Shown here: positions 5,314-55,683 of the stretch, in pieces
Layout of the letters: each line of letters opens with the position of its first letter
How positions within the stretch are numbered: the first letter of the stretch is position 1
Assembly (NCBI GenBank): GCA_029556915.1
Contig: JAKQIT010000146.1
Location: forward strand, 19,000-82,999
Length of the DNA: 64,000 bases
Reading direction: 5' to 3'
DNA from: Pseudomonadota bacterium
GTDB lineage: Bacteria > Pseudomonadota > Gammaproteobacteria > Burkholderiales > Methylophilaceae
Notes under the pieces: model-generated
What the model was told of the DNA's origin: nothing
Database searches by the model: none
Seen by the model: only the letters and a program-made list of their open reading frames with translations
Made by a program: the position numbers and the translations under genes

Positions 5314-5499
5314 ATTTATAACTCATTGCGAATTACCGTCATGATACATGAGTCATTGCTTTAATCGCCGCAAAAAAGCAACACTTCGTTAAAAGTGCCA
5401 GCAAAAACCCAGCATTTTATCGTTGAGTTGACCTATATCGTTGACAAGCCGTTTCAAAGGCATACCATGATACTCAATGATTTAATTTTTGGAGGCAAT

Positions 5500-6648: not shown

Positions 6649-6657
6649 AGATGCCGC

Positions 6658-6692
6658 TATAATGGTGCGTTGTATTTCAATCAGCGCACCAT
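6658..6692 (+). promoter_or_regulatory. Promoter -10 and leader hairpin before the CobW-type GTPase gene
   Basis: A perfect TATAAT lies at 6658-6663. Directly after it, ATGGTGCG (6662-6669) and CGCACCAT (6685-6692) form perfect 8-bp inverted arms with a 15-bp spacer, ending exactly at the start codon. No Shine-Dalgarno sequence is present between them. The hairpin could be an operator or could hide the start codon in the RNA; which of the two is inference. Confidence 0.45.
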
Positions 6693-7709
6693 ATGGACAA
6701 ACGCATCCCCGTCACCCTGCTTACTGGCTTTTTAGGCTCAGGCAAAACCACTTTACTCAACAAGCTGTTGGCAAACCCCGCGATGAAAGACAGCGCGGTG
6801 ATTATTAACGAACTGGGCAACACGGGGCTAGACCATATTTTAGCCACGCAGGTGGAGAGTGAGCAAATTGCCGATAACACAGTGTTGTTGCAAAGCGGCT
6901 GTGTGTGTTGCACACTTAAAAATGAGCTGGCAGATACCATGCGCGACTTATTTTTTAAGCGCGCTTTGCAGGCCATCCCGCAATTTAATCGGCTGGTGAT
7001 TGAAACCACAGGCATGGCCGACCCCGGCCCAATTTTGGGCAATTTAATGAATGAGCCTGTGATAGAAAGCGTGTTTCGGCTAGATGCAGTGGTGGTGACT
7101 ATTGATTGCGTTTACGGTTTAAAACAGCTTGAAGAACATGCCGAAGCCCGCAAACAGGCCGCGGTGGCCGATGTATTGCTGCTCACCAAAACCGATTTAG
7201 CCAGCGCGGAAGAAATTAGCGCACTGAAGGAAAAGCTAATTGAAATTAACGCAGGCGCTACGCAACATAAAATCGCACATGGCGAAATTGACCCCGATTT
7301 TATTATTGATGTTGGCCTGTTTGACCCCAGCGGCAAAAGCGCTGAGCCGCAGCGTTGGCTACGCGCGCCTTTAAAGCTTGCAAAGCCAAAAGGCACTTTG
7401 CCGCAAACCAACCAACACGATGAAATTAGCAGTTTTACAGTCACCCTTCCCAGCCCGCTGAATTGGCGCGATTTAAAACCAGTGATTTTGCGCCTGTGCC
7501 AAATACATGGTGAAAAATTGCTCCGCTTAAAAGGCATTATTCACGCGGCTGACCAAGCGGCACCATTGGCGATTCACGCTGTGCATTTCACCCCCTACCC
7601 ACCCACCTTGCTAGAAGGCTGGACAGAAGACGAACCCGAAAACCGCATTGTATTAATTGGCAAAAATTTAGATGAAAATGCGATTAGAAAGCTACTGATG
7701 GAAGTGTAA
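6693..7709 (+). CDS. CobW/G3E-family GTPase, probable metal chaperone (YjiA/ZNG-like)
   Basis: The 338-residue product has the G3E GTPase core: P-loop TGFLGSGKTTLL at residues 10-21, the metal-binding GCVCCTL motif (CxCC) at about residue 70, the ETTGMADPGPI switch, and a LLTKTDLA guanine-specificity motif. A CobW C-terminal domain follows from about residue 240. Proteins of this family load metals (Zn, Co, Ni, Fe) into client enzymes using GTP hydrolysis. The clade and metal cannot be decided from the sequence. It is not next to cobalamin genes, so a cobaltochelatase role is unlikely. The ATG at 6693 follows a hairpin leader without a ribosome-binding site. Confidence 0.87.
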   Translation: MDKRIPVTLLTGFLGSGKTTLLNKLLANPAMKDSAVIINELGNTGLDHILATQVESEQIADNTVLLQSGCVCCTLKNELADTMRDLFFKRALQAIPQFNRLVIETTGMADPGPILGNLMNEPVIESVFRLDAVVVTIDCVYGLKQLEEHAEARKQAAVADVLLLTKTDLASAEEISALKEKLIEINAGATQHKIAHGEIDPDFIIDVGLFDPSGKSAEPQRWLRAPLKLAKPKGTLPQTNQHDEISSFTVTLPSPLNWRDLKPVILRLCQIHGEKLLRLKGIIHAADQAAPLAIHAVHFTPYPPTLLEGWTEDEPENRIVLIGKNLDENAIRKLLMEV

Positions 7710-43293: not shown

Positions 43294-43340
43294 TGGCGCC
43301 CCCGACACGAATCGAACGTGTGACCTCTCCCTTAGGAGGG
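43294..43340 (-). pseudogene. 3' half of the host tRNA-Arg(CCU) gene, split by the element
   Basis: On the minus strand this runs from the anticodon loop (CCCTCCTAAGG, the att core) through the 3' anticodon stem, variable loop, T arm (ACACG-TTCGATT-CGTGT) and acceptor strand CGGGGGC to G73 and an encoded CCA. Upstream of the core the sequence turns abruptly AT-rich and has no 5' half. Joined with the fragment at 55644-55683 it forms a perfect cloverleaf with a 7-bp acceptor stem (GCCCCCG/CGGGGGC) and anticodon CCU. Confidence 0.9.
43330..43340 (+). repeat. Left attachment core (attL)
   Basis: CCTTAGGAGGG, identical to the copy at 55644-55654. It corresponds to CCCTCCTAAGG of the tRNA-Arg anticodon arm on the minus strand. 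Confidence 0.85.
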
Positions 43341-43399
43341 ATTATTTAAAATGAATATAAGATATTGTTTTTAAATAGTATTCTATTTTTTTATCATTT

Positions 43400-43462
43400 T
43401 TTTTGTCAAATTTTTGTCAAATAAAATAATGCTGTTTAGTGTTTTTTGTCAATTTTTGTCAA
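43400..43462 (+). repeat. Left-end TTTTTGTCAA repeats (candidate integrase arm sites)
   Basis: Four direct copies of TTTTTGTCAA at 43400, 43411, 43443 and 43453. They form two pairs with 10-11 bp spacing, about one helical turn. The same paired motif occurs near the right end at 55529-55549. Arm-site function is inferred from position. Confidence 0.65.
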
Positions 43463-43465
43463 AAT

Positions 43466-43540
43466 TGGTATCCCCGACAGGAATCGAACCTGTATTTATC
43501 GCTTAGGAGGCAATTATTCTATCCGTTGAATTACGAGGAC
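43466..43540 (-). tRNA. tRNA-Arg(CCU), element-borne replacement
   Basis: A complete cloverleaf: acceptor GTCCTCG/CGGGGAT with two G-U pairs, D stem ATTC/GAAT, anticodon stem ATTGC/GCGAT with loop CTCCTAA (anticodon CCU), T arm ACAGG-TTCGATT-CCTGT, A73 and encoded CCA. It keeps the known arginyl-tRNA synthetase identity bases A20, C35 and A/G73. It differs from the host tRNA-Arg at many positions and lacks the complete 11-bp att core (GCCTCCTAAGC instead of CCCTCCTAAGG). It is 125 bp inside the left end of the element, which broke the host gene for the same tRNA. Confidence 0.92.
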
Positions 43541-43639
43541 TTTAAAGAGTGAATTTTACACGATTAGAGCAATTATTTTAGGCTAATTGATATGGTTGTA
43601 TCAAAAAACTATTTTAAGCCGTTTAAATGAGCCTTAATG

Positions 43640-43720
43640 AGCTTATGCATATATGCATATGAATAAACCCCCGAAGAAAGCCAACAAGCTAATTCGTAGG
43701 GGGTCTTATGATTGTGTATA
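43640..43720. other. Palindromic segments downstream of the left-end operon
   Basis: The spacer contains GCATATATGCATAT and ACCCCCGAA...TTCGTAGGGGGT arms. On the minus strand the latter ends GGGGGTTTATT and could be a terminator with a long loop for the leftward genes. Nothing else is recognisable in this spacer. Confidence 0.35.
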
Positions 43721-43739
43721 TGTGTGTAAGGTTATTGTA

Positions 43740-44102
43740 TTAATTAAGATTATAAACTTTACTATTCTTTATATAGATATAATTGTTTAAAACAAAATCT
43801 TTAATTTCTGCATGGCTTTCATATGAGTTTATTTCATTATATAAAAGAATAAAGAATATATTTTTATCAATATCTTCATTATTTTTATCAGCTTCATCAG
43901 CTAAATTTTGAATGAAATTAACCCATTCCAAAGAAAAAATAGGTAAATCTTCTTTTTTAATATGATTTAATCTTAATTCTTCATAATGATTTAAAGCACC
44001 TATTAAACAATTTTTAATTACTTTAAATGAAAGTTGCTCTAAAACATTTTTGTTAGCATTATGATTTCTTAAATATTGTTCTTGATTTAGTATATATGCC
44101 AT
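43740..44102 (-). CDS. Element protein of unknown function, paralogue of the gene at 44396
   Basis: The 120-residue product is predicted all-alpha and acidic. It shares with the product of 44396-44779 the aligned pattern L.Q...K.I...LI..L..Y..L.L..I..E..P...L.WV, followed by a second match H.[ED]IK[DE]F near the C-terminus, so the two are divergent paralogues. No known domain is recognised. It is the last gene of a tight leftward group (1-bp spacing to the gene at 44104). A moderate Shine-Dalgarno (AAGGGG) precedes its ATG inside the end of the upstream gene. Confidence 0.6.
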   Translation of the reverse strand: MAYILNQEQYLRNHNANKNVLEQLSFKVIKNCLIGALNHYEELRLNHIKKEDLPIFSLEWVNFIQNLADEADKNNEDIDKNIFFILLYNEINSYESHAEIKDFVLNNYIYIKNSKVYNLN

Positions 44103-44103
44103 T

Positions 44104-44394
44104 TTAAACCCCTTTATTTTTGTTAAGTATATTTTTTTCTAATGCAATCATTGAGAAGCATAGAGTAGCTAAAATTGCAGTATTTTCGTGTTCTTTACTG
44201 TCCTTAAATTTACTTCTATCTAAATAACTTAAATGAAATTCAAGTAATTTATCAAAAGCTAATGGCAAGTTTTTAGCTGTATCTTCTCTTTCAAGCATAT
44301 CGCTTAATGTAGCTATTACACCTTCTTTTAATGGATTTTTGTTTCTTTCATTAAAAGTAGAGTTTTTTAAATAGTTATCTAATAAGCTTTTCAT
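44104..44394 (-). CDS. Element protein of unknown function (96 aa)
   Basis: The product is a small, charged, probably all-helical protein (SLLDNYLKNSTFNERNKN, then LSDMLEREDTAKNLPLAFDK, then AILATLCFSMIALEKNILNK, each separate). I recognise no domain. It sits between the two paralogous genes at 43740 and 44396 with a gap of one base on each side, so the three form one transcription unit and probably act together. Confidence 0.55.
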   Translation of the reverse strand: MKSLLDNYLKNSTFNERNKNPLKEGVIATLSDMLEREDTAKNLPLAFDKLLEFHLSYLDRSKFKDSKEHENTAILATLCFSMIALEKNILNKNKGV

Positions 44395-44395
44395 A

Positions 44396-44779
44396 TTAAA
44401 TAGTCACAACAATGGGGTTATAGTATTCTTTTAATTCTTTTAATCTTGCTGCTCTTTCACATTCAAATAAATAAAGGTTTGTAATAAATTCTTTAATATC
44501 TTTGTGTTTTTTACAAGATAATACTTTACTTGTTAGTTCAGCTTCAAAATCTTCAAAAACATTATCAAGGTCAAAATAACCATATCTATTAGTTTGAATT
44601 GCAAAAATGTCTAAATATGTTACCCAAGTTAAAGCACGAAGAGGTATTTCTTCGTCTGTAATATTATCTAAGGCTAATTGTTTGTATATTGGTAAAACAG
44701 AAATCAAAGAGGTTTGAATTTGTTTTAATGTGAATTGGTTTAATGCTTTATTGATTTTTTCTAATGTGTAATATGACAT
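44396..44779 (-). CDS. Element protein of unknown function, paralogue of the gene at 43740
   Basis: The 127-residue product aligns with the product of 43740-44102 over most of its length (LNQFTLKQIQTSLISVLPIY and IPLRALTWVTYLDIF regions, and HKDIKEFITNLYLFE near the end). No known domain is recognised. It is the first gene of the leftward three-gene group. The ATG is preceded by AAAAGGAATACATCAA, a usable ribosome-binding site. Its 171-bp upstream spacer is AT-rich and should contain the promoter. Confidence 0.6.
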   Translation of the reverse strand: MSYYTLEKINKALNQFTLKQIQTSLISVLPIYKQLALDNITDEEIPLRALTWVTYLDIFAIQTNRYGYFDLDNVFEDFEAELTSKVLSCKKHKDIKEFITNLYLFECERAARLKELKEYYNPIVVTI

Positions 44780-44950
44780 TTGATGTATTCCTTTTAAATC
44801 TTAGTTTAGTTTTGTTTCTCCTTTGTATTGCACCCGTAATTCTTTTGTTGGGTAATCATTAAAGATTTAATTATATCACAATCAAATATAGTTCACAAGT
44901 ATTATTATAAAGTTAATTAAAAAGCCATTATTAAAAATGGCTTGTGTTTA

Positions 44951-45310
44951 TTAAAATTCAAATATTGTTTTTAAGTTATTTAGTTTCTCTGTTTTAAAAA
45001 GTTTGGTATCTAATGGACTATCTGCAAGCTCTTCAAAATCAAATATGTTATTAACTGTTTGATTAAGTTTATATAGCTTCTTTAAAGCACACCATTTAAC
45101 AAGTCTGCAAGCTTCTAAATCTTTTTCTGTTTGTTTAATATTGTCTTTGTTCCATTTTTTATAAACTTTAAGATTAAGCTTGTAATCTTTTTGTTGTAAT
45201 ACATATATAGTATATGCATTAGTGTTTAAATAAAGCCTGTCTGTATTAGCTTTAAATGTGTGGTCTATTTTTAAATCTGTTAATACTTTACTTAATTCTT
45301 CTAAATTCAT
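44951..45310 (-). CDS. Element protein of unknown function (119 aa)
   Basis: The product is a small basic protein. Its first half has a beta-rich look (DHTFKANTDRLYLNTNAYTI, then YVLQQKDYKLNLKVYKKW), and its second half is helical. No domain is recognised. The ATG is preceded by the conserved element leader AATAATAATAAAAAGGAG. It is 21 bp downstream of the relaxase gene on the same strand, so it may be co-transcribed with the mobilization genes. Confidence 0.55.
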   Translation of the reverse strand: MNLEELSKVLTDLKIDHTFKANTDRLYLNTNAYTIYVLQQKDYKLNLKVYKKWNKDNIKQTEKDLEACRLVKWCALKKLYKLNQTVNNIFDFEELADSPLDTKLFKTEKLNNLKTIFEF

Positions 45311-45331
45311 TTTTGAAACTCCTTTTTATTA

Positions 45332-47263
45332 TTATTTTTGTATTTCGGTTGTTTTGTCTTTCGCAAGTGATAGCACTTTATATTTATCATTTAAATGATT
45401 ATTTATTTTTGAGTGTATAGATAAGTGTTTATTTAATTCGTTGTTAAGTTTTCCGTCTGTAAGATTATCTTTATTTTCTTCAAGTTCTAAAAGTTTATCT
45501 TGTAGTTGTTGCTCGTTGATTTCACTTATTTTTTCAATATTAGATAATGTTAAGTCATTAAGATTATTATCAATATATTGCTTAATTTCAAAATCAAGTA
45601 ATTTATCAGCATATTCATTTAAAGATAATTTAAGATGTTTATTAAGTTCTAATTTTTCTTCAAATTCTTTTTGTCTTTTAGCTCTTTCTTCATTTTCTAA
45701 GTGTTTTGATTTATCTGCTTCTTTTGAGCTTTCTGCATTATTTGAAGATACAGAATTATCAATATTACTTACACTATCTTCATTAGATATTGCTTTATTG
45801 CTTTTCTCTTCTGCCATTAATTGAGTTTTGAGCATTCCTATTTGTTGCATTAACATTTGAAATTGAAAAGCAAAATCTTCGGCTTTTGGGTCTAATAAAA
45901 ATAATTTGTCTTCAAGGTTTTTTAGATTACTTAAAATTTCGTTTTTATCTCTGGCTGGACCTAATGCCATATCAATATTATTTTTAGGTTTGTTGATATT
46001 ATTCATAAGTCCATTAAATTTTTGTTCTAATGGTTTAGATTGTGTTTTAGTTGGTTTTGATTGTTTAGTGTCTTTGTTATTTGATATATTATTATTTTTG
46101 TTTGATATTTTTTTAAATGCATTGTTTGCACTACTTATTTTATAGTTTTCTGCTTGTTTTTGTATGAATGAGTTTTTAGAATAAAACATAACTTGTTTTG
46201 TTATTGAAGTTAATTTTTTATCATTTTTATATTCTTCAAATATTTCTTTGCTTGATTTAGTTGAGAATTTAGCTTGATTGTTTGCAATAGTTTTTAATTT
46301 CTTTAATGAAATACCTGCTTTATTATCTTTCATTATTTCACTAAAAGATTTGTGATTATCTTTTTGATTAGATTTAATAGATTGTAATTTATCAATATCA
46401 AAGCCTAAATCTTTTGCATTTGATTGCCAGTAAGTTCTTAAATCTTCTAAATTATGACTATCTTTTTTAGCTCTTACTTTTAAACTTATATTTTTCTTTT
46501 CATTATAAGTTGCACTTTCTCCTGCTAATTTATCAATTTGTTGAGTTCTTTTTGAAAAATTATCTCTTAAATCGTCTGTAATTCCTTTTACTTTAAAATT
46601 ACCGTGTTTATCTTCTTGCTCTATATTAAAGCCTAATTCTTGAAGTCCTTTTGCAAGTTCTAATTGTCCTACACTATCAAAATATTTTAATGTTTCGTGT
46701 CCGTTGTTCTTTTCATATTTAGCTTGTAATAGTGTATGACTGTGAAATTGTCCGTCTTTACCTAATGATTTAGGAAATACTGTTATATGTGTGTGTTCCT
46801 GGGGGTCTATTATTCCTAATGGGTTAATATCTTTATCATTAACTTCTCTGCTTGTGTGATGGTTAAAAATAGCCATTCCAGTAGCTTTGGCTAATTCAAA
46901 AGATGTTTTACCGTTTTCAGTTTTTCTAATGTATGTATTCTGTTCTATTGCTTTACATATATTATTTACTGCTTTATCTCTTATGCCGTCCATTTTTAAC
47001 CTTGTTTCACTATCTACAAGGTTATAAATTAAAGTCCAGTCCTTAGGTGGTGAAAAGCATATATCTACACCTTTATTATCTTCTCCTCCGTGTTCTATCA
47101 TTTTTAAATACTTATTTTCAGTGACTTCTTTATTTTCTAATTTTTGAAATCTCATTAAAGAGCCTTTAAAAATACCTTTCTCATTATCATTTTCACTATA
47201 ATAATCGTGTTGTGAATGTTCTAAATGATAACTAACATTACTTATTTTACTCATTGAAATCAT
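45332..47263 (-). CDS. MobF (TrwC-type) conjugative relaxase without helicase domain
   Basis: The 643-residue protein starts like TrwC relaxases, with adjacent tyrosines at 21-22 in HDYYSEND. It continues with VDICFSPPKDWTLIYNL (about 66-82) and the HUH metal site, NHHTSRE (about 144-150) plus EHTHITVFPK (about 156-165). FHSHTLLQAKYE and YFDSVGQLELAKGLQELGFN complete the fold to about residue 300. The enzyme nicks oriT and pilots the strand through Tyr-DNA linkage. The helicase half present in TrwC and TraI is absent; instead there is a 340-residue Ser/Asn/Lys-rich coiled-coil tail. Its start overlaps the coupling ATPase stop (ATGA), with GGAG eight bases upstream. Confidence 0.8.
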   Translation of the reverse strand: MISMSKISNVSYHLEHSQHDYYSENDNEKGIFKGSLMRFQKLENKEVTENKYLKMIEHGGEDNKGVDICFSPPKDWTLIYNLVDSETRLKMDGIRDKAVNNICKAIEQNTYIRKTENGKTSFELAKATGMAIFNHHTSREVNDKDINPLGIIDPQEHTHITVFPKSLGKDGQFHSHTLLQAKYEKNNGHETLKYFDSVGQLELAKGLQELGFNIEQEDKHGNFKVKGITDDLRDNFSKRTQQIDKLAGESATYNEKKNISLKVRAKKDSHNLEDLRTYWQSNAKDLGFDIDKLQSIKSNQKDNHKSFSEIMKDNKAGISLKKLKTIANNQAKFSTKSSKEIFEEYKNDKKLTSITKQVMFYSKNSFIQKQAENYKISSANNAFKKISNKNNNISNNKDTKQSKPTKTQSKPLEQKFNGLMNNINKPKNNIDMALGPARDKNEILSNLKNLEDKLFLLDPKAEDFAFQFQMLMQQIGMLKTQLMAEEKSNKAISNEDSVSNIDNSVSSNNAESSKEADKSKHLENEERAKRQKEFEEKLELNKHLKLSLNEYADKLLDFEIKQYIDNNLNDLTLSNIEKISEINEQQLQDKLLELEENKDNLTDGKLNNELNKHLSIHSKINNHLNDKYKVLSLAKDKTTEIQK

Positions 47264-49428
47264 ATTTCTAACTCCTTATCTTTCTTTTTTGTTATTGTTG
47301 TTTTTAATTCATTTGTAAGAGTGATATTGTTATTAGTATTTTTACTTGTAAAATTATCAATCATATCTCCTACTGCACTTGCTATACTTAATGAAGGGTC
47401 AATAGAATGAGCTAATTGCTCTTCTAATGCATTTGCAATAGGGTTAATATCGTCTAAAAAATCTAAATCAGATGCTTCATTATGTATTGTTTCTATTTCT
47501 TGTTGTATCTCTATTACTTCTTCTTTTACAGTTTCTAATTCTTTATCTTCTTCTGTAATTGATTTATTTAGATTTACTTTAATATTATTTGAAGTTATAG
47601 ATTTAGTAATTTTCTTTAATTTTTTTGGAAAGCTTACAGTTGGCATAATGATTAAAGGTAAAGTATTATTTTGAGAGAATTTGAATAATATTCTTACACC
47701 TATAAATTTATTATTTGTATCAAATTGTGGACCTAATAAATTATTTAATTCATTAATGTTATATGCTGGTTGTCTTTTTTCATTTGTTTTATTTGAAAAT
47801 GTTTGTCCTGTTGCCGTAAAGTTGCTTGTAGTTGAATATTCAATAATGTCTTGTTCTCCTATTATTTCTTTAACATATTCAATATCGTCACTTGCAAATC
47901 TACATATAACTTTATTTTGAAAGCTTGCCATAAAGCTTTTACTATCTGCTGGCTTACCATTGCTTTGAAACTTTTCTTTTATTTGGCTTGCTCTTTGTAA
48001 TATAACTGTTGTTCTTATTTGCTTACTTCTTCCTACATCTGGCAATTTCATAAATGTATCTAATGAGATTGAAGATAATTGTGGGAATTCGTCTAAAATA
48101 AAATGTATTTGTGAAGTTGGTTTATATGAGTTATCTATAAGCTCAGGCACTATAAGATTGATAAATGCACTTATATAGCAGTTAGCTATATCACTGTATG
48201 TATTTGAGTTTGATAAAACAATAGCTTGTCTATCGTCTTTGTCTGCAATCCATTTTCTTATATTTAATGCTTTGTTCTTTTGTTTATCTCCCCAAAAGCT
48301 TGATAATGTTTCAAATTTTCTAATAATATCTATACAGCTTGCTAATACACATAATGAAGTTTTTGCATTTTGAGAATTAATATAAACACTTGCAGTTGGG
48401 TTATAAATAGATATGAAAGCATTGATTAAATCTAATTGTTCTTTATTTTTATCAAGCTCTTCTTTAAGTTTGTTTATTGAAGTGTCGTTAGTTTCTAATA
48501 AATTTGTGTCTATTGGTTGAATATTAAAACTATTCCATTTTTCTACAATATCGCCTAAATTACCTTTTACTATTCCTTTTACTTTTGTTTCTCTTACTAC
48601 ATATCTTACAAATGTTTCAATAACAGATATTGAGCCTATTTGAAAAAAGTCTGTTTTGCTTATTGCTTCTGTAAATGCTAAAACAAAAGTTCTTATCCTT
48701 GAATTTTCATTTTGAATTACTTCACTTGATATAAGGTTTAAAAAATCGATTGAATAACCTTCTTGCTTATTCCAAGGTTCTATTAAATAAAGTTTTGTAT
48801 AGCCGTCAAGTTTTGATAGTTCGTCACCTTTTACATTATGTACTATTAATTTATGCTTATTATCTATTACCTCTTTAAACATTCTATCGGTTAATACAGT
48901 TTTACCACTTCCAGCTTCTCCTGTTATAACAGTAGATAATTCTTTGATGTTTTCGGGTAAATAGATAGTATTTAATAATTTTTTATATGGTAGTTTATTG
49001 AAGTCTGTATCTCCTTCTTTTAAAAATGCTATCGTTTTGTCTTTTACATTTTTAAAATTCTTTTCAATATTTTCAATTACATTTTCTGTATCGTCTATGT
49101 AATTACCACTTTTTATAGTTTGTCTATTTGTTGGTTTAGTAATTATATTAGTTAAGAAGTATGAAACAGCTATTGATATGCTTAATAAAAATAATGTAGA
49201 TAGTTTAAAAGTTAATCTATCTATTGAAGTATCATTATTTAGAAAAAGAATTAAAGATTTTAAATAATCTATATGCATAATTTTATAAAATAAAATGTAT
49301 GTTAATAGAGAATAAAATAAAACAGTAAAGAAGATATTGAAACTAATAATATGGTTTGTGTATCTTCTATATTCACTTGGGGCTAAAATGCTATCTTGTT
49401 TTGGACTTGATATATATCTTATTTTCAT
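47260..49428 (-). CDS. Type IV coupling ATPase (TraD/TraG/VirD4-like)
   Basis: The 722-residue product has two N-terminal membrane segments (about 28-50 and 76-97). An AAA/FtsK-like ATPase follows, with Walker A ITGEAGSGKTVLTDRM (about 168-183), VHNVKGDELSKLDGY, Walker B HFILDEFPQLSSI (about 438-450) and VGRSKQIRTTVILQRASQI. It is the receptor that carries relaxase-DNA to a secretion channel. The C-terminal 130 residues are low complexity and acidic. It lies between a ribbon-helix-helix gene and the relaxase gene, whose start overlaps its stop. No channel genes accompany it. Confidence 0.83.
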   Translation of the reverse strand: MKIRYISSPKQDSILAPSEYRRYTNHIISFNIFFTVLFYSLLTYILFYKIMHIDYLKSLILFLNNDTSIDRLTFKLSTLFLLSISIAVSYFLTNIITKPTNRQTIKSGNYIDDTENVIENIEKNFKNVKDKTIAFLKEGDTDFNKLPYKKLLNTIYLPENIKELSTVITGEAGSGKTVLTDRMFKEVIDNKHKLIVHNVKGDELSKLDGYTKLYLIEPWNKQEGYSIDFLNLISSEVIQNENSRIRTFVLAFTEAISKTDFFQIGSISVIETFVRYVVRETKVKGIVKGNLGDIVEKWNSFNIQPIDTNLLETNDTSINKLKEELDKNKEQLDLINAFISIYNPTASVYINSQNAKTSLCVLASCIDIIRKFETLSSFWGDKQKNKALNIRKWIADKDDRQAIVLSNSNTYSDIANCYISAFINLIVPELIDNSYKPTSQIHFILDEFPQLSSISLDTFMKLPDVGRSKQIRTTVILQRASQIKEKFQSNGKPADSKSFMASFQNKVICRFASDDIEYVKEIIGEQDIIEYSTTSNFTATGQTFSNKTNEKRQPAYNINELNNLLGPQFDTNNKFIGVRILFKFSQNNTLPLIIMPTVSFPKKLKKITKSITSNNIKVNLNKSITEEDKELETVKEEVIEIQQEIETIHNEASDLDFLDDINPIANALEEQLAHSIDPSLSIASAVGDMIDNFTSKNTNNNITLTNELKTTITKKKDKELEI

Positions 49429-49439
49429 TTTTATTATTC

Positions 49440-49688
49440 CTATATTATTTTCTTTTGTTCTAATATAGTAATAAGCTTTTCAAAAGTTATTCTTATATCG
49501 TCTGTATCTTGTTGAATACTACTAAGCTTTTCATTTATCTTATTTTCTTCTTTAATATTTAAAGTATGATTTTCTAAAATATTACTTATATAGTCATTTA
49601 AGTTTTTAAAGATTTTATCGTCTGCTCTTTTTAAAAGTATAGTTTTTACTGATGGTTTAACTCTAATAGTTATTTGTTCTTTATTCAT
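49440..49688 (-). CDS. Ribbon-helix-helix accessory protein of the mobilization operon
   Basis: The 82-residue product has an N-terminal RHH-like fold: a beta strand EQITIRVKPSV followed by helices KTILLKRADDKIF and LNDYISNILENH. A C-terminal coiled coil (INEKLSSIQQDTDDIRITFEKL) follows. Such proteins bind oriT next to relaxases as accessory factors. It is 11 bp ahead of the coupling ATPase gene, preceded by the leader AACAATAATAAAAGGAATT. Its role in the relaxosome is inferred. Confidence 0.6.
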   Translation of the reverse strand: MNKEQITIRVKPSVKTILLKRADDKIFKNLNDYISNILENHTLNIKEENKINEKLSSIQQDTDDIRITFEKLITILEQKKII

Positions 49689-50144
49689 AATTAATTCCTT
49701 TTATTATTGTTGTTGTTGTATATTAAATATAATAGAAAAAAAATCATTATCAAGCTTTAAATCTGATTTATTTTTAAAGCTATATAAATAAAGGGTTTAA
49801 ATAGATTTAATGAATTAAATAAAAGGTTTTAGATTTAAAACTGATTTATTTAATTTGCCTTACTTTTCAATACCCGTAAGGGTTTGAGCAGAATAGCAAC
49901 CTGAAAGGGTTGCACTATGTATGAATAAATTAAGAATTAATTTATGGGTAGCTAACTTCGCCTTTTGCTTTTGTTTTTAATGTCTTATATATAAAGTCTT
50001 ACGCTTAATGTCTTACTTTCTTTTAAGCTTTTTTATATGTCTTACTTTATAGGTCTTATATTTAATGTTTGACAATTTAAAATATTTTATTATCTTATAT
50101 GTAAGGTCTTACATTTAAGGTCTTATAATTGGAAGGGGTTTAAT
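49689..50144. promoter_or_regulatory. Divergent control region with candidate oriT hairpin
   Basis: This 456-bp spacer separates the leftward mobilization genes from a small rightward gene. It contains ACCC-GTAA-GGGT near 49872 and a perfect hairpin GCAACC (49896-49901), loop TGAAAG, GGTTGC (49908-49913). To the right lies the iteron array. MobF origins of transfer have an inverted repeat close to the nick and lie next to the relaxosome genes, so this is the best oriT candidate. The nick cannot be placed. Confidence 0.45.
49979..50127 (+). repeat. Iteron-like GTCTTA array with 14-bp period
   Basis: Seven copies of GTCTTA at 49982, 49996, 50010, 50039, 50053, 50106 and 50120, most inside a unit of type TAATGTCTTANNNT. 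Intervals are 14, 14, 29, 14, 53 and 14 bp. The last copy lies 25 bp before the start codon at 50145. It could be an operator of the encoded small DNA-binding protein, or replication iterons. Confidence 0.7.
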
Positions 50145-50324
50145 ATGGCAATGAAAAGAGTTTATGAAGGTGAGAAATTAATTAAGAAAACTATATATTT
50201 AGAAAAAGAGGATGTAGAAATTTTTGAGAGGTATGCTTTATTAGAAAATAAATCATTACCTATTTTAGTAAGAGCTGTTATGAGTAAGTTTGCTGCAAGC
50301 TATAAACAGAGATTGAAACAATAA
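50145..50324 (+). CDS. Small putative DNA-binding protein (59 aa) downstream of the iterons
   Basis: The ATG at 50145 has a strong GGAAGGGG seven bases upstream. The 59-residue product is MAMKRVYEGEKLIKKTIYLE, then EDVEIFERYALLENKSLPILVRAVMSKF in pieces, then a basic tail. The strand-helix-helix layout (KKTIYL, EDVEIFERYALLE, LPILVRAVMSKF) looks like a ribbon-helix-helix repressor. A strong terminator follows at once. It is the only rightward gene in this part and probably acts on the GTCTTA array in front of it (inference). Confidence 0.6.
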   Translation: MAMKRVYEGEKLIKKTIYLEKEDVEIFERYALLENKSLPILVRAVMSKFAASYKQRLKQ

Positions 50325-50327
50325 AAT

Positions 50328-50348
50328 AAAACCCCTTGCGGGGTTTTT
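50328..50348. terminator. Bidirectional Rho-independent terminator
   Basis: Perfect hairpin AAAACCCC-TTGC-GGGGTTTT followed by TTATTATT. It lies between the convergent genes ending at 50324 and 50350. Confidence 0.85.
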
Positions 50349-50349
50349 A

Positions 50350-50547
50350 TTATTTGCATTGAGCTTCTGGAATTAGATAAGCTATTAAATAAATAATTGG
50401 AATCAATGAAAAACATAATATGTAAATTCCTAAAAGCATTACTAAAAATTCTTTTAACACTTCTTTCAATTTTCTTTCATTAATTTTCTCTAAAAATTGT
50501 GGTTCTTTTTCTGTTGTAATGTTTAATTCGTATTCTGTATTTTTCAT
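50350..50547 (-). CDS. Small membrane protein of the element (65 aa)
   Basis: The product has a charged N-terminal half (ELNITTEKEPQFLEKINERK) and a long hydrophobic stretch (about 35-60, FLVMLLGIYILCFSLIPIIYLIAYLIP) with one or two membrane helices, ending in a Cys-containing tail. No family is recognised. It follows the RHH gene at 50549 by one base. A single-pass membrane protein behind an RHH gene can be a toxin, but nothing in the sequence shows this. Confidence 0.5.
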   Translation of the reverse strand: MKNTEYELNITTEKEPQFLEKINERKLKEVLKEFLVMLLGIYILCFSLIPIIYLIAYLIPEAQCK

Positions 50548-50548
50548 T

Positions 50549-50737
50549 TTATTTTCCTTTAAAATTATTTATTGTTTTATTTATTATTGTTTTACTGTCA
50601 TTATCTTGTGTTGTTATATGCAATAATGTTAAATAATTGCTTAATGTTAAATGATAGTATTTAGCTGTATTAATCATTTCAGTTTTTAAATCTTCTGCTA
50701 CTCGTATTTGAATTATTTTGTTTTTATTGTTATTCAT
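50549..50737 (-). CDS. Ribbon-helix-helix protein (Arc/MetJ-like, 62 aa)
   Basis: The product has the pattern KIIQIRVAEDLKTEMINTAK followed by YYHLTLSNYLTLLHI, an N-terminal strand and two helices typical of RHH DNA-binding proteins. It overlaps the gene at 50730 by 8 bp and is one base ahead of the small membrane protein gene. It may be a local repressor or a relaxosome accessory factor; the target is unknown. Confidence 0.6.
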   Translation of the reverse strand: MNNNKNKIIQIRVAEDLKTEMINTAKYYHLTLSNYLTLLHITTQDNDSKTIINKTINNFKGK

Positions 50738-51059
50738 ATTTTTTATCTCCTAATGCTTTATGAAAATGAAGAGCTATAAACTTTTCCCCATTCTTAATAG
50801 TGTGATTAATTTCGTATTGTTCTAATGCTTCTTCTATTAGTTCGTCTGCGAATTCATTAAAATACAATTCTATTTTTTGGATGTCTTCATAAGAAAATCT
50901 TTTGTATATTGCAAATACTTTCAATCTTATGTTGTAAGCTATATAGCTATCATAAAAACCACCAAAATTATTAGTATCTTTTTCTGCTAATATTTCTTTT
51001 AATACTTGTTTTTTATCTTTATTAGCATTGATAAATTTATTTTTTAGTTCTGTAATCAT
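50730..51059 (-). CDS. Element protein of unknown function (109 aa)
   Basis: The product is helical and acidic, with ADELIEEALEQYEINHTIKN near the end and FGGFYDSYIAYNIRLKVFAI in the middle. No domain is recognised. It has the conserved leader AATAATAAAAAGGAG before its ATG. It lies between the gene at 51084 and the RHH gene, which it overlaps by 8 bp; all three are one leftward operon. Confidence 0.55.
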   Translation of the reverse strand: MITELKNKFINANKDKKQVLKEILAEKDTNNFGGFYDSYIAYNIRLKVFAIYKRFSYEDIQKIELYFNEFADELIEEALEQYEINHTIKNGEKFIALHFHKALGDKKYE

Positions 51060-51083
51060 ATTATTTTCTCCTTTTTATTATTA

Positions 51084-51458
51084 TTATGATTTTGTGTAAT
51101 AGTGTTTTAATTGTTCTTCTGTTAGTGTGTTTTCTTCGTGTTTATTGTTTTTAAATTTTTCCATATCAATTTCAATAAATTCTATTTCGTCATTTTCACT
51201 ATCTTTTATATATTTTTCATTACCTGTATAATTTATTTCTAATGGGTCAAAATCATTAGGTATTTCATTATCTTTTGCAAATTCTCTTTTACCGTTTTCA
51301 ACCACAAGAAAATATATTAGCTCTTCTTTTAAGTTCTTATATTCATTTTGAAAAGGTTCTTTTAAATCACCCATTGATATTTCGTGTTTAATAAAATCAT
51401 TTTGTATTTCTTGCATTAATCTTAATGCTTTTAATCTTTGATATATTTGTATTTCCAT
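51084..51458 (-). CDS. Element protein of unknown function (124 aa)
   Basis: The product is acidic, with a helical N-terminal half (IYQRLKALRLMQEIQNDFIK) and a Glu/Asp-rich second half (DSENDEIEFIEIDMEKFKNN). No domain is recognised. Its promoter at 51495-51522 carries an operator shared with the metallopeptidase-like gene upstream, and its leader has AACAATAATAATAAAAGGAG. It heads an operon of at least four leftward genes. The acidity could suggest DNA mimicry, but this is speculation. Confidence 0.55.
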   Translation of the reverse strand: MEIQIYQRLKALRLMQEIQNDFIKHEISMGDLKEPFQNEYKNLKEELIYFLVVENGKREFAKDNEIPNDFDPLEINYTGNEKYIKDSENDEIEFIEIDMEKFKNNKHEENTLTEEQLKHYYTKS

Positions 51459-51494
51459 TTTTTAAACTCCTTTTATTATTATTGTTGTATTTTT

Positions 51495-51522
51495 AATATA
51501 GTAAATGTATTTACATTGTCAA
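51495..51522 (-). promoter_or_regulatory. Promoter with palindromic operator, copy 1
   Basis: On the minus strand TTGACA (51522-51517), 16-bp spacer and TATATT (51500-51495). The spacer contains the inverted repeat AATGTA-AA-TACATT, and an extra AATGTA-like half site (AAATGTATTGACA) lies on the -35 side. The same arrangement recurs at 52354-52381. Confidence 0.65.
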
Positions 51523-51541
51523 TACATTTAGGATATTTATT

Positions 51542-52318
51542 TTAAAATGTTATTGCTTTACTTCTTATTTTTTCTGCATAAATACAAGATTTATTGTATA
51601 AATCTTTTAAGTTCTTAAATTTTATACTTCTTATTAAATCGTCAAACTTACATACATTTATTGAAAGTAAAGAATATGCAGGGTCTTCGTGTATATCGTA
51701 TGCTCTAAAAAAACATCTTTGATTATCTAAAAAATCATTATCTTTTTTGTTTATTAGAATGTCGTCACTTTTAAAGTAATATTTATTAAATAAACAATAA
51801 TTAAATATTGCAAATTCTAATGTATGAAGATAATTTTTATTATTTGAAAAATGATATAAAGCAACATGTGAAAACTCATGAATTAAAAGCCTTGCAAAAC
51901 TTGACTCATTATTTTTATTAATTTCTATTATATTTTCAGTAACTTTTGCAAGTCCTGCATAATTTCCAATATCTTTAAATTCAATTTTTAAAGATATTAG
52001 TAATTTTTCTAAAATATCATTTTCTTTTTTATTTTCTTGATATATTTCATCTGTAATATTTATGTAACTTTTGTTATCATAGTAATTCATATTATTATCT
52101 TGGCTAATAGTGTAAATTATTGATTGCCAGCAACTATTTATATCTTTTATATATTGTTTTTTAATTTCTTCTCTGTTTAATTCTTTTAAATATTCTTCTT
52201 TAATTTCATTTTTCAAATCTTCCCTTTGTTTTGCTTTTTTCTTATTTTCAATAATTTCTAATTCTTCTGCTTTTGATATTTCTTCTTGATAATCTATATT
52301 TGTTATTATATTTTCCAT
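51542..52318 (-). CDS. Putative zinc metallopeptidase-like element protein
   Basis: The 258-residue protein has a charged coiled-coil N-terminus (about 10-55). A folded domain follows that contains the zinc-binding helix ARLLIHEFSHVALYHFS (about 143-159, HExxH type), and HTLEFAIFNYCLF follows about 20 residues later, where Glu could be the third ligand. The spacing resembles gluzincin-type or ImmA-like peptidases found on mobile elements, some of which inactivate repressors or help evade restriction. The substrate is unknown. It has its own operator-containing promoter, identical in design to that of the next gene. Confidence 0.55.
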   Translation of the reverse strand: MENIITNIDYQEEISKAEELEIIENKKKAKQREDLKNEIKEEYLKELNREEIKKQYIKDINSCWQSIIYTISQDNNMNYYDNKSYINITDEIYQENKKENDILEKLLISLKIEFKDIGNYAGLAKVTENIIEINKNNESSFARLLIHEFSHVALYHFSNNKNYLHTLEFAIFNYCLFNKYYFKSDDILINKKDNDFLDNQRCFFRAYDIHEDPAYSLLSINVCKFDDLIRSIKFKNLKDLYNKSCIYAEKIRSKAITF

Positions 52319-52353
52319 TTTAAATAGTCCTTTTTTATAGTTGTTATCTATTT

Positions 52354-52381
52354 AATTTAGTAAATGTATTTACATTGTCAA
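52354..52381 (-). promoter_or_regulatory. Promoter with palindromic operator, copy 2
   Basis: On the minus strand TTGACA (52381-52376), 16-bp spacer with AATGTA-AA-TACATT, and TAAATT (52359-52354). It drives the metallopeptidase-like gene and is nearly identical to the promoter at 51495-51522, so one regulator probably controls both. Confidence 0.65.
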
Positions 52382-52939
52382 TACATTTAAAGAATTTATT
52401 TTTTAATATATGAAGTCAAAAGCAGTTCGCTCGCAAGCTCGCTTCTTATGGGAAGTAGGAAAAGCAATTGATAGCAAGCTATCAAGTTATGCTTACAGCA
52501 ATGAGTTTTAAAGCTGTTTTGAAGTGTTATTGATATGTTTGTATTGCTGTGAGTGTTTAAATCGTTTGTAGAGCATTAAAATTGAGTATTAAAGCTGTTT
52601 AAGTTGTTTATTAAGTCATTAGGGGGTTGTTTTTGACTTTCGCCCGTATGGGCACACCTTTACTTACCTCCCCCGGGGGGGCTGGGGGGCGATTAAATAC
52701 TATTATTTAATTAATCTTGAATATGCAGGTTAAAAATGATGCTTTTGACTTTAAGAATTAATTAGTTTTGTTGTGAGCTTAAAGCGAACATAAACAAAAC
52801 GGCTATGCTTTTGATTTTGTTTTATCTATATCTATGTAATAGATATAGATAAATCTATATCTGTCTATCTGCTTTTTTTTATCATTCTTTGTTAAGCCAT
52901 ATAAACAAAGGCTTAAAGCACTGTAAAAGCTAAATTTAT

Positions 52940-52983
52940 TTAGTCCATTTTATTACAGTATTTCCTGTATGTTTTTGGACTAA
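52940..52983. repeat. Nested palindrome upstream of the Rep-like gene
   Basis: Outer arms TTAGTCCA (52940-52947) and TGGACTAA (52976-52983), inner arms TACAG (52954-52958) and CTGTA (52965-52969). It can form a cruciform or a long RNA hairpin. Confidence 0.55.
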
Positions 52984-53146
52984 CTGTAATATTGATTTTA
53001 ATATTTACAGATTTTCCTTTATTCAATTACCGATTTTTGAGAATTTTTATTTTATATTTTTCTCGTATTACTGTAATAATGATATTGACTTTTACTTATT
53101 AACTGCTTTAATTAAATTACAACAATAATAAAAAAGGGTTAATGAT

Positions 53147-53719
53147 ATGAAAGAAAATAAGTTTATTAAACAGTATTTAGATAATAATAATTTTGAAGTG
53201 ATTAATGGTAAGTTTTATAATAAGAAAGATAAATTGATTAAAAAACCAGTTCAACTTTTAGATGATAAAGAGTTTATTAAGGTTTTTATTAATGCGAATA
53301 GTGTATTAAGTGATTTAAAAAACAGTTCTAAATTAGTATTTGAATATGTGTTTAAATGCTTACAATCAAGTTCAAGCTTTAATAAAACTGAAATAGAAGT
53401 TAATTTTAAGCATTACAATAGATTTTGTAGATACAATAATATTAAAGCTTTATGTGAGAAAAGCTTTTATCTTGCAAGAAAGCAATTGATTGATTTAGAT
53501 ATTATTGACGAAACAGAAGATAAGGGAGTTTATTACTTTAATCTTAATTACTTTTTTAATGGTAATAGATTAACTGTTATTACTGAATATGTTAGAAGTA
53601 ATTCAAGCATTAAAGAAGATAATAAAAAATTAGATGAAGATACTAATTTAAAACAGAATGATATTAAAGATAATGAATTAGAAGGTTATAAACAGAAAAA
53701 AACAGCATTTCAAAGTTAA
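53147..53719 (+). CDS. Probable replication initiator (winged-helix Rep-like)
   Basis: The 190-residue product has an N-terminal winged-helix-like domain. LSDLKNSSKLVFEYVFKCLQ is followed by EIEVNFKHYNRFCRYNNIKAL, FYLARKQLIDLDIIDETEDKGV and YYFNLNYFFNGNRLTVI (separate pieces). The order helix, strand, recognition helix and a final Y.FNL.YFF wing resembles RepL-like and other plasmid initiators. The C-terminal 40 residues are polar. It is preceded by AACAATAATAAAAAAGGG and 828 bp of palindrome-rich DNA. Replication of the excised circle is therefore plausible. It ends at a bidirectional terminator. Confidence 0.55.
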   Translation: MKENKFIKQYLDNNNFEVINGKFYNKKDKLIKKPVQLLDDKEFIKVFINANSVLSDLKNSSKLVFEYVFKCLQSSSSFNKTEIEVNFKHYNRFCRYNNIKALCEKSFYLARKQLIDLDIIDETEDKGVYYFNLNYFFNGNRLTVITEYVRSNSSIKEDNKKLDEDTNLKQNDIKDNELEGYKQKKTAFQS

Positions 53720-53724
53720 TAAAA

Positions 53725-53745
53725 AAGCCCCAAATTTTGGGGCTT
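53725..53745. terminator. Bidirectional terminator between the Rep-like and H-NS genes
   Basis: Near-perfect hairpin AAGCCCCAAA/TTTTGGGGCTT, flanked by an A-run on the left and T-rich sequence on the right. It lies between convergent genes. Confidence 0.8.
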
Positions 53746-53767
53746 AATATTTTTAAGCATGTTTATA

Positions 53768-54073
53768 CTATTCTTTAATTAAAGCACTATCTAATGTATT
53801 ACCAGCTTTTAAGTAAGCTTCAATCCATAAAGGTTTTCTACCTTTGCCCGTCCAAGTTTGTGTTTTGTCTGTTGGGTTAGCATATACAGCTTTTGATTTT
53901 GATTTAGCTTTTGACTTTGATTTAATGTTTAACTCTTTTGCTGTGAAGCTGTATTTTTCAATATCTTCATTAACTCTTTTTAATGCTTCTTTTCTTGTTG
54001 TATTTAACAAGTCTGTTTTCTTTGTTAGTAATTCTTGAATTTGTAAATCAATATCTTCTACTGTATTAGCCAT
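53768..54073 (-). CDS. H-NS family nucleoid-associated protein
   Basis: The 101-residue protein has an N-terminal helical oligomerization region (VEDIDLQIQELLTKKTDLLN), a basic linker (KSKSKAKSKSKA) and a C-terminal DNA-binding motif (YANPTDKTQTWTGKGRKPLW, residues about 64-83). The last is the H-NS core with TWTGKGRKP as the AT-hook-like loop. H-NS proteins silence AT-rich DNA. Being carried on a very AT-rich element, it may mask the element's genes in the host or keep them quiet until transfer (inference). It is monocistronic, next to the integrase gene. Confidence 0.82.
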   Translation of the reverse strand: MANTVEDIDLQIQELLTKKTDLLNTTRKEALKRVNEDIEKYSFTAKELNIKSKSKAKSKSKAVYANPTDKTQTWTGKGRKPLWIEAYLKAGNTLDSALIKE

Positions 54074-54165
54074 TTTTTAAGCTCCTTAATTTAGTAATAA
54101 GTTTAAAACAAAATCGATTTTAAATATGTTTTAAAAAAAAGTATACTAATTTATTAAACTATTTA

Positions 54166-55482
54166 TTAATTTTCACTTATTTTTTTAGTTAAATTATCAA
54201 TTAAGTTTCTTGAATAATGCTTAGTCATTCCTTTGTTTAAATGTCCTGCTTGCCTTTGTATATCTCTTTCTGTTGATACTAAATCATTATTAACCCTGTT
54301 GTTTTCTTCATAATTAAATAAATGAGTCTTCTCAAAATAAGCTATATCATTAATGTTAGCTAATTCACTTACTGCAATTGGGTTTAAATGTTCTTCTAAT
54401 GCTCTACTTATAAACTCACTTCTTAAATCGTGAAATTTAAAATCTTCTATGTTGAGTTCTTTAATAATTCTATTCCAAGAGGAATTAAAGCCCTCTATTG
54501 ATAGATTAAACACCATATCATTAGATTTCTTATGTTCTATATCAATAAGTATCTTTTTAACGATTATTTGAGCTTGTGGAAGTAATTTTACTTTTCTTGG
54601 TAAGCCGTTTTTAGTTTTGTTTAACTGTATATAGTTATCTTTTAAATCATTTTTTTTCATTAAAAGTATTTCACTTTTTCGCATACCAGTTGTTAAAGCT
54701 AATAATGTTATTATCAATAAATTTTTATTTTCGTTCTTGTTTAAAGCATCTAAAATTAATTCTTCTTCTTTTTTGCTTAATCTTCTATCTCTCTTTATAA
54801 AGAAATTCTTTAAGTCTTTCTTATTAACTTTTTTGACAGGGTTAATTTCTGCAAGTATTTCATACTTACTATAATAGTTTGAAAAATTACTAAAAAAGCT
54901 ACTGATATAGTTTAACTCTCTTTTTACTGTTGATTTTTTTACTGTTTCTAATCTTTTTGATATGTAGCTGGCTATATCGCTTGAAGTCATTTTTAAAGGG
55001 TCTAAATCTCCAAATTCTATTAAAAAATCTTCTCCAAAAGCATTAGCTACTGATACAGGGGAATTTTCAAATAAAATATTGTTAGTGATTTTAACTTTTG
55101 ATATGTTTTTAACAAGTAATCTATATTTTCTATTACTCATTCTGTCTAATTCGTTTAAGTCTTTATGTGTCCTTATAAAATGCTTTTCATTAAATGCTTC
55201 TAGTAATGCAGATAAGCTATTATTCTCTTTAAAGCTTTTATCTTCATACTCATTATATAAATCATTGTCTTCTTGGGTTAAAAATGTATTTAAAGCATTT
55301 TTACCTATGATTGTTTTTGAGTTGTTTATAATTTCATTTGCAATATCAAGAGTATCAACAAGCTTATTTAATTTAATATCTTTCTTATTAATTCTTACTC
55401 TATATTTAGTTATTAAAGTGCCGTCTTTTTGTTTATATGTAATCTCTTGAATACCTTTTTGAATTAAAGACATTTTATTCAT
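54166..55482 (-). CDS. int: Tyrosine recombinase (integrase) of the tRNA-Arg element
   Basis: The 438-residue protein has an N-terminal arm-binding-like region, a core-binding domain (about 130-230) and a catalytic domain. The catalytic Arg lies in LLALTTGMRKSEILLM (about 262-277), HxxR in FKFHDLRSEFI, and the His-Tyr end in QAGHLNKGMTKHYSR. All tyrosine recombinase residues are present. It reads leftward from the right end, 161 bp from the att core and directly downstream of the host tRNA-Arg 5' half. The host tRNA promoter therefore points into it. TTTTTGTCAA repeats lie just upstream of its start. Confidence 0.88.
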   Translation of the reverse strand: MNKMSLIQKGIQEITYKQKDGTLITKYRVRINKKDIKLNKLVDTLDIANEIINNSKTIIGKNALNTFLTQEDNDLYNEYEDKSFKENNSLSALLEAFNEKHFIRTHKDLNELDRMSNRKYRLLVKNISKVKITNNILFENSPVSVANAFGEDFLIEFGDLDPLKMTSSDIASYISKRLETVKKSTVKRELNYISSFFSNFSNYYSKYEILAEINPVKKVNKKDLKNFFIKRDRRLSKKEEELILDALNKNENKNLLIITLLALTTGMRKSEILLMKKNDLKDNYIQLNKTKNGLPRKVKLLPQAQIIVKKILIDIEHKKSNDMVFNLSIEGFNSSWNRIIKELNIEDFKFHDLRSEFISRALEEHLNPIAVSELANINDIAYFEKTHLFNYEENNRVNNDLVSTERDIQRQAGHLNKGMTKHYSRNLIDNLTKKISEN

Positions 55483-55528
55483 AGCTCCGTAGCAGTTGAT
55501 ATGAATGAGATTAGAACAGCCCCTTCTT

Positions 55529-55549
55529 TTTTTGTCAAATTTTTGTCAA
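55529..55549 (+). repeat. Right-end TTTTTGTCAA repeats (candidate integrase arm sites)
   Basis: Two direct copies at 55529 and 55540, 11 bp apart, in the same orientation as the four copies near the left end. They lie between the integrase start and the att core. Confidence 0.65.
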
Positions 55550-55643
55550 AATTTGTGATAAAAAGAGGTTTTATTGAAGTGTAGTAAATTACTAACTTAT
55601 TGAATTTATTAGATATTGTATATGAGTGAAAGGTTAAACGACA

Positions 55644-55654
55644 CCTTAGGAGGG
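55644..55654 (+). repeat. Right attachment core (attR)
   Basis: CCTTAGGAGGG, identical to 43330-43340. It is the anticodon arm segment at the end of the host tRNA-Arg 5' half. Confidence 0.85.
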
Positions 55655-55683
55655 GAGAGCTCTATCCACTGAGCTACGGGGGC
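55644..55683 (-). pseudogene. 5' half of the host tRNA-Arg(CCU) gene, split by the element
   Basis: On the minus strand it reads GCCCCCG (acceptor), TA, D arm GCTC-AGTGGATA-GAGC, T, anticodon stem CTCCC and loop CTCCTAA, then leaves tRNA sequence after GG. No 3' half follows in the element. It complements the fragment at 43294-43340. Confidence 0.9.

Follow-up and report, generated by a model that had tools for sequence, protein, structure and literature searches.

A probable mobilizable element that splits tRNA-Arg(CCU) and carries a divergent tRNA-Arg(CCU) of its own in the family Methylophilaceae

Introduction

Williams reportedly described, in 2002, conventional tRNA-targeting elements with a crossover in the anticodon loop. 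We analyzed an element inserted in such a loop in a 64,000-nucleotide (nt) stretch of DNA from a Methylophilaceae bacterium (hereafter the window; positions 19000-82999 of contig C155 in genome G000), where the gene for tRNA-Arg(CCU) is split and a complete, divergent tRNA-Arg(CCU) lies within the inserted DNA. We consider it likely that this is an integrative mobilizable element that breaks the host gene and whose own tRNA-Arg(CCU) takes over the function. According to the available text of a review, integration at a tRNA gene usually reconstitutes an intact tRNA; conventional anticodon-loop elements use the same kind of site as the window element but, unlike it, supply the missing 3' part, so that the tRNA ends up intact (PMC8371274). 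An earlier note on the window had drawn the same distinction, namely that most tRNA-targeting elements rebuild the gene and that this one does not, and it fits both the rule in the review (PMC8371274) and the failure of the junctions to fold.

The best-documented parallel is tRNA-dependent lysogeny, reported in 2024 for the actinobacteriophages Fionnbharth, LeBron, and Gaia and proven with phage mutants (PMC10865867). There, as in the window, a tyrosine integrase uses an attachment site (attB) in a tRNA gene, no tRNA is rebuilt, and a complete tRNA of the same isotype is carried; the core is short in both, at 8-17 bp in the actinobacteriophages, 11 bp in the window, and 17 bp in an element of Methylophilus methylotrophus described below (PMC10865867). 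On the other hand, the published carriers are phages and the tRNA was essential in the case that was tested, whereas here the carrier is a mobilizable element, the tRNA is possibly dispensable, and the system is known from sequence (PMC10865867). In the available part of their paper, the authors left open both the prevalence of the mechanism beyond actinobacteriophages and its relation to tRNA-rebuilding elements (PMC10865867).

A similar arrangement was described for Lo5R7ANS-like prophages, which occupy tRNA-Leu(UAG) in two Sinorhizobium meliloti strains: the prophages hit the central part of the tRNA gene and inactivate it, and they bring along a divergent tRNA of that kind (PMC11476347). 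Unlike the loci described here, these are intact prophages, and the accessible text describes no relics after their loss (PMC11476347). The phiLM21-like prophages were checked for a substitute-tRNA mechanism, which, as far as the accessible text goes, was not seen (PMC12429752). Within Methylophilaceae, the flexible genomic island fGI-1, a replacement island, lies between tRNA-Ser(gga) and tRNA-Arg(cct) (PMC10872708). It thus shares with our case the family and the use of tRNA-Arg(CCU) as an island border, but the available text mentions neither a split nor a substituted tRNA (PMC10872708). The logic of tRNA substitution is therefore already published for phages; the novelty lies in the carrier, which is not a phage, and in the relics. 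We did not find a mobilizable non-phage carrier of this mechanism, or relics of one, reported in the literature that we searched, in which most subscription journals were not covered. Because a replacing kind of element, rebuilding-like loci, and seemingly permanent swaps all occur at one tRNA gene in one family, the order of events becomes testable. Mobile DNA is offered here as a route for the exchange of a core translation gene and, if this is true, mobilizable elements would act as engines of tRNA gene displacement.

Results and discussion

The element splits one tRNA-Arg(CCU) gene and carries another

The window element spans positions 43341-55643 (12.3 kb) inside the anticodon loop of the host tRNA-Arg(CCU). 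It is AT-rich, with a GC content of 0.21-0.27 in 1-kb bins that lie wholly within it; the flanks have higher values, 0.44-0.47 at 40-43 kb (left) and 0.36-0.40 at 56-59 kb (right). The two host halves (Table 1) overlap at nt 30-40, which form the 11-bp core CCCTCCTAAGG in the anticodon arm. ARAGORN called no tRNA at either junction, whereas the joined flanks gave a complete and perfect 76-nt tRNA-Arg(CCT). The anticodon stem of this joined tRNA is CTCCC/GGGAG versus TCCCC/GGGGA in the copy of G403, a genome of the same genus; the differences are paired (sequences compared, pairing read by eye), which suggests that the two halves were one functional gene until recently. As read from the sequence, the anatomy of the junctions fits an integrase that recombines its own attachment site (attP) with an attB inside the host tRNA gene.

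A complete tRNA-Arg(CCU) sits 125 bp inside the left end of the element. It has the same CCU anticodon as the broken host tRNA, its predicted minimum-energy fold is a full cloverleaf, and it shares 71.1% identity with the host tRNA whose place it takes. Among the ten other tRNAs compared, it is closest to the substitute tRNA of G556 (81.8%), a genome of the same genus, followed by the element tRNA of genome G442 (78.7%); both are discussed below. A -10-like motif precedes it, and a promoter scan of the surrounding region was not clearly above chance (7 found versus 4.1 +- 2.0 in shuffled sequences). Thus, the anatomy that the earlier note had proposed was borne out at each point: the gene is split with an 11-bp core and halves 12.3 kb apart, each half being a 100% match; neither junction folds; and a full divergent tRNA-Arg(CCU), recognized by both ARAGORN and RF00005, lies 125 bp inside the left end without the host gene being rebuilt.

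The same arrangement recurs in a second element and with a different integrase

A second member of the element family was found in Methylophilus methylotrophus DSM 46235 (= ATCC 53528; Methylophilaceae; genome G461, about 10 contigs). It is 12.7 kb long and its proteins are similar to those of the window element (integrase 76%, coupling protein 65%, a 190-amino-acid (aa) protein 74%, and relaxase 61% identical, the last over 504 residues). The tRNA-Arg(CCU) that it interrupts belongs to another sequence class (B), and its halves overlap by 17 bp; the joined flanks form a complete tRNA-Arg(CCT), and ARAGORN called neither junction. An intact class B tRNA with the same flanks is present in five genomes of the same genus (G311, G452, G467, G473, and G479). 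A complete tRNA-Arg(CCU), similar to the host class of the window (A), lies 124 bp inside the left end, and an alignment of the left ends places the element tRNA equally against the repeats in both elements, with GTGTAAAAT upstream in both. A pattern search of this genome matched the element tRNA and the 3' half of the host gene, as well as one sequence that ARAGORN did not recognize as a tRNA. The two element tRNAs are 74% identical to each other. The M. methylotrophus element tRNA shares 71.4% identity with the joined tRNA of its own host and 85.7% with the window host tRNA, and the window element tRNA is 72.4% identical to the M. methylotrophus host tRNA. The identities to the respective own hosts (71.1% and 71.4%) show that each carried tRNA is clearly divergent from the gene it breaks.

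This second element also bears on whether the structure in the window is an artifact of misassembly or contamination, with an unrelated contig joined into a tRNA. The G000 assembly (3.28 Mb, 165 contigs) is a draft estimated to be 99.99% complete with 5.65% contamination; yet the same structure exists in the independent genome of M. methylotrophus ATCC 53528 in another class of host tRNA, and the two tRNA halves in the window fit each other. We therefore find such an artifact scarcely credible.

In G442, the order is host 5' half, a different integrase, substitute tRNA 8 bp after the integrase, a type II restriction-modification pair, and host 3' half, the host halves being about 11.4 kb apart. 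The joined flanks fold as tRNA-Arg(CCT) and the junctions do not (ARAGORN). The window integrase has no match at this locus at an E-value of 1e-4 or lower, and the G442 integrase scores above the Pfam cut-off for the N-terminal domain PF14659 and below it for PF00589. A 5'-truncated extra tRNA-Arg copy, not called by ARAGORN, lies 1.2 kb beyond the 3' half. That the arrangement is found again in M. methylotrophus, where the element is homologous, and in G442, where the integrase differs, argues that in the window it is not due to chance.

Two side observations concern these loci. Type II restriction-modification cargo lies near the substitute tRNA both in M. methylotrophus (locus L145, 1543-3655) and in G442 (L206, 10102-12110); at this place, the window element has small open reading frames (ORFs) without a family match. 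In addition, the M. methylotrophus locus, occupied by class B in relatives, contains an inverted A-like tRNA-Arg(CCU) in G340 (L136, 6950-7026) and G485 (L137, 6681-6757). This tRNA adjoins about 7.5 kb of ordinary-looking genes and is possibly an old replacement; since no host half was found, we did not count these two genomes as relics.

Some relatives have a substitute tRNA beside a cut host half

Three genomes of the window's genus, G540, G554, and G556, have a piece of the host 5' half and, beside it, an inverted complete divergent tRNA-Arg(CCU). We found neither a host 3' half nor a window-type integrase in the stretches examined (about 20 kb each in G540 and G556, and a 7.3-kb contig in G554). 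The host half stops right after CTCCTAAG of the anticodon loop in G554 and G556, and in G540 it is damaged also within the anticodon loop. By eye, the ORFs around the G540 site look ordinary; a ParE-like gene lies nearby in G554 and a RelE-like gene, just under the cut-off, in G556. Judging from these remains, the three loci are probably permanent swaps, in which the substitute was kept after the host half had been cut; the substitute tRNA is identical in G540 and G554, so these two may represent one event. According to the earlier note, relatives that keep the divergent tRNA without the element would refute replacement. Such relatives do exist, but because a cut host half lies beside the substitute tRNA, we read them as support for it.

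The orientation of the gene relative to a Bcp peroxiredoxin gene was compared across 80 distinct loci, with A-type tRNAs defined as at least 80% identical to the window host tRNA. All 23 A-type tRNAs with Bcp in view are on the strand opposite to Bcp. Five of the seven non-A tRNAs with Bcp in view are on the Bcp strand, including those of G540 and G556; the other three have no host half. Bcp is not in view at the remaining 50 loci. Within the genus (52 genomes, counted by hand), the tRNA signature is A in 36 genomes, different in 12, and without a match in 3, plus the window's own; eight of the 12 genomes with a non-A signature were fetched, and ARAGORN confirmed their tRNA-Arg(CCU).

Seven family loci with the same tRNA (in G441, G437, G475, G391, G466, G535, and G559) have a complete tRNA together with a repeated 3' part, which is the usual state after insertion of a tRNA-rebuilding element. 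A gene similar to the window integrase is present at four of them (G441, G437, G466, and G559); at G475, G391, and G535, the repeated 3' part suggests an insertion. Thus, a rebuilding kind of element also uses the tRNA-Arg(CCU) site. We lean toward the broader view that tRNA-Arg(CCU) of Methylophilaceae has been broken and replaced several times by divergent element-borne tRNAs from a mobile pool, and that the foreign tRNA stays on as the resident gene after decay of the element.

A few loci stand apart from these groups. G430, G496, G504, and G465 (L205, L207, L208, and L209) have a divergent tRNA-Arg(CCU) with 64-73% identity to each of classes A and B; no host half is in view at these loci, which may be further replacements. 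In G433 and G366, a complete tRNA is accompanied by a copy without nt 1-8; these two are left out of the seven conventional loci above. Two complete tRNA-Arg(CCU) genes lie near each other in G391 (L130) and G472 (L135), and one of the G391 copies adjoins an integrase 40% identical to that of G442.

Gene content of the window element

The integrase gene lies downstream of the host tRNA 5' half on the same strand (Table 1), and its transcription may be driven by the host tRNA promoter. Repeats resembling TTTTTGTCAAA occur near both ends of the element, and the left-arm pair is a candidate arm-type (integrase-binding) site. The 190-aa protein had no match in Pfam, PHROGs, or NCBIfam and is suspected to be a replication initiator; as a side observation, the stretch preceding its gene (52319-53146) is long, has no listed ORF, contains a G-rich run, and could be an origin region. 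No match was found for the four small cargo ORFs in Pfam (two of the four tested), PHROGs (three), NCBIfam (three), or PADLOC (all four). When ten element proteins were compared with PHROGs, the integrase was the sole match to a phage family. Beyond the relaxase and the coupling protein, no transfer gene was found with Pfam, PHROGs, NCBIfam, or PADLOC among the scanned element ORFs. With an integrase and a relaxase, and without full conjugation machinery among these ORFs, the element reads as integrative and mobilizable; given the relaxase and the coupling protein, it does not look like the temperate-phage carriers of tRNA-dependent lysogeny.

Table 1. Features of the window element and of the host tRNA gene that it splits (window coordinates)
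Feature	Position	Strand	Evidence or comparison
Host tRNA-Arg(CCU) 3' half, nt 30-76 (attL); starts in the 11-bp core	43294..43340	-	100% match, nt 30-75 at 43340-43295
Left-arm repeat pair, TTTTTGTCAAATTTTTGTCAAA	43400..43421		Conserved in M. methylotrophus element
Second left repeat pair, 2 bp from CCA end of element tRNA	43442..43463		Partly matching repeat at same place in M. methylotrophus
Complete substitute tRNA-Arg(CCU), CCA encoded	43466..43540	-	ARAGORN; RF00005 60.2 bits (cut-off 29 bits)
-10-like motif GTGTAAAAT, 12 bp upstream of element tRNA	43553..43561	-	Identical and equally placed in M. methylotrophus element
Four small cargo ORFs	43740..45310	-	No family match
MobF/TrwC relaxase	45332..47263	-	PF08751 E 5.6e-41; NF041492 MobF 128.5 bits (cut-off 100)
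Type IV coupling protein, TrwB/TraD type	47260..49428	-	PF10412 E 1.1e-20; PF12696 E 7.8e-13
Conserved 190-aa protein (suspected replication initiator)	53147..53719	+	74% identical in M. methylotrophus element
H-NS-like DNA-binding protein	53768..54073	-	PF00816 E 3.5e-12
Tyrosine integrase, 438 aa	54166..55482	-	PF00589 E 1.2e-17; PHROG integrase E 2e-33; 76% identical to M. methylotrophus copy
Right-arm repeat pair, 2 x TTTTTGTCAAA	55529..55550		Conserved in M. methylotrophus element
Host tRNA-Arg(CCU) 5' half, nt 1-40 (attR); ends in the 11-bp core	55644..55683	-	100% match to joined tRNA

Proposed mechanism and the need for tRNA-Arg(CCU)

We propose that the tyrosine integrase inserts the element at the anticodon loop of tRNA-Arg(CCU). 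Because attP shares only 11 bp with its target, integration would break the host gene. The complete tRNA-Arg(CCU), fixed beside the left attP repeats, would be expressed and charged and would take over the function, so that an integrant would pay little or nothing in fitness. The element could later be excised and transferred, precise excision restoring the host tRNA; should the broken host half decay beforehand, the foreign tRNA would become the resident gene.

How much the host depends on the element was judged from its tRNA set. The earlier note had suggested looking for another tRNA-Arg(CCU) elsewhere in the genome; in the G000 draft, an RF00005 search with ARAGORN, two tRNA DNA queries, and two pattern searches found no second complete one. 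The RF00005 search gave 37 matches, 35 of which were called by ARAGORN; the other two, one truncated at the end of a contig and one scoring 29.9 bits, have anticodons read as UUU and GUU. The pattern searches gave three and two matches, and the extra one is not a tRNA according to ARAGORN. There is one copy each of tRNA-Arg(UCU), tRNA-Arg(CCG), and tRNA-Arg(ACG). In E. coli, argW(CCU) is dispensable, argU(UCU) reads AGG by wobble, and loss of both is lethal, as described in the available text (PMC4652775); by analogy, the tRNA-Arg(UCU) of G000 probably reads AGG as well. AGG accounts for 30 of the 14,023 codons in 26 host ORFs of the window (mechanically defined ORFs of at least 200 aa) and for 8 of the 3,271 codons (2.4 per 1000) in fifteen ORFs of the element. 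The heavily used arginine codon of the element is AGA (23.2 per 1000).

These data bear on the possibility that the tRNA is ordinary cargo: the break would be tolerated since tRNA-Arg(UCU) reads AGG, and the carried tRNA would serve the codons of the element or evade tRNA-cutting defenses. In keeping with this, G000 has tRNA-Arg(UCU), the host seldom uses AGG, E. coli can do without argW (PMC4652775), and a tRNA-Val(GAC) gene cut without a substitute in G427 (see below) suggests that breakage may be tolerated if another copy exists. However, the carried anticodon is that of the broken gene in the window, in M. methylotrophus, and in G442, the last with a different integrase; an element that favors AGA over AGG would, for help with its codons, call for a UCU tRNA; and the substitute was kept in G540, G554, and G556. 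We thus regard ordinary cargo as unlikely and substitution for the broken gene as the better account.

The earlier note had further suggested that the element acts like an addiction system on which the host comes to depend. One part of this claim is supported: the element copy is the only complete tRNA-Arg(CCU) found in G000. In a module of the toxin-antitoxin kind, loss of the element would harm the cell as its only tRNA-Arg(CCU) leaves. This part, the addiction, is weaker: the joined host halves make a perfect tRNA, and precise excision should therefore restore the host gene and leave clean loss unpunished, dependence arising only through imprecise loss or host-half decay; redundancy with tRNA-Arg(UCU) lowers the penalty further. 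An addiction module of the toxin-antitoxin type is therefore very improbable. Instead, lasting dependence would require that the host half decays before excision, and G540, G554, and G556 look like that stage.

Several points weigh against substitution as we propose it. The RF00005 census scored 150 of 209 candidates and left 59 unscored, and tRNA-Ile(GAU) and tRNA-Ala(UGC) were not found in G000 either; the assembly thus has gaps, and a copy of tRNA-Arg(CCU) could have been missed. With tRNA-Arg(UCU) present and AGG rare, tRNA-Arg(CCU) may not be needed at all. The G554 contig is only 7.3 kb long, so an element may be elsewhere in that genome. The close element family comprises two genomes, and the scans of element ORFs left out the small ORF at 50350-50547.

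Distribution of related integrases

Relatives of the window integrase at an E-value of 1e-20 or lower are present in 5 of the 187 family genomes and in 9 of the 399 order genomes, the window's own included in both counts; the best other one in the order search is 33% identical over nearly the whole length. In a class sample of 369 genomes, only the window's own genome gave a match at 1e-40 or lower. A scan of genome contigs identified 17 loci, among which M. methylotrophus alone is close, the others being 33% identical or less. Among 2,239 plasmid records and 10 phage records, all integrase relatives were below 60% identity and none covered 80% of the query; two scans of viral contigs returned none.

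Some of the distant relatives appear at other sites. G427 (L172, contig C22) contains a small element at 3452-6890 with a 35% identical integrase and MobA/MobC-like ORFs (names read by eye). Next to its integrase lies a truncated tRNA 5' half, read as tRNA-Val(GAC), of which the genome has an intact copy elsewhere (L184). The contig has no substitute tRNA, and we did not count it as a further case of tRNA substitution. The integrases of G251, G077, and G120 (L056, L057, and L058), which are 32-33% identical, border the start of an msrA gene (gene read by eye) and therefore seem to use another site.

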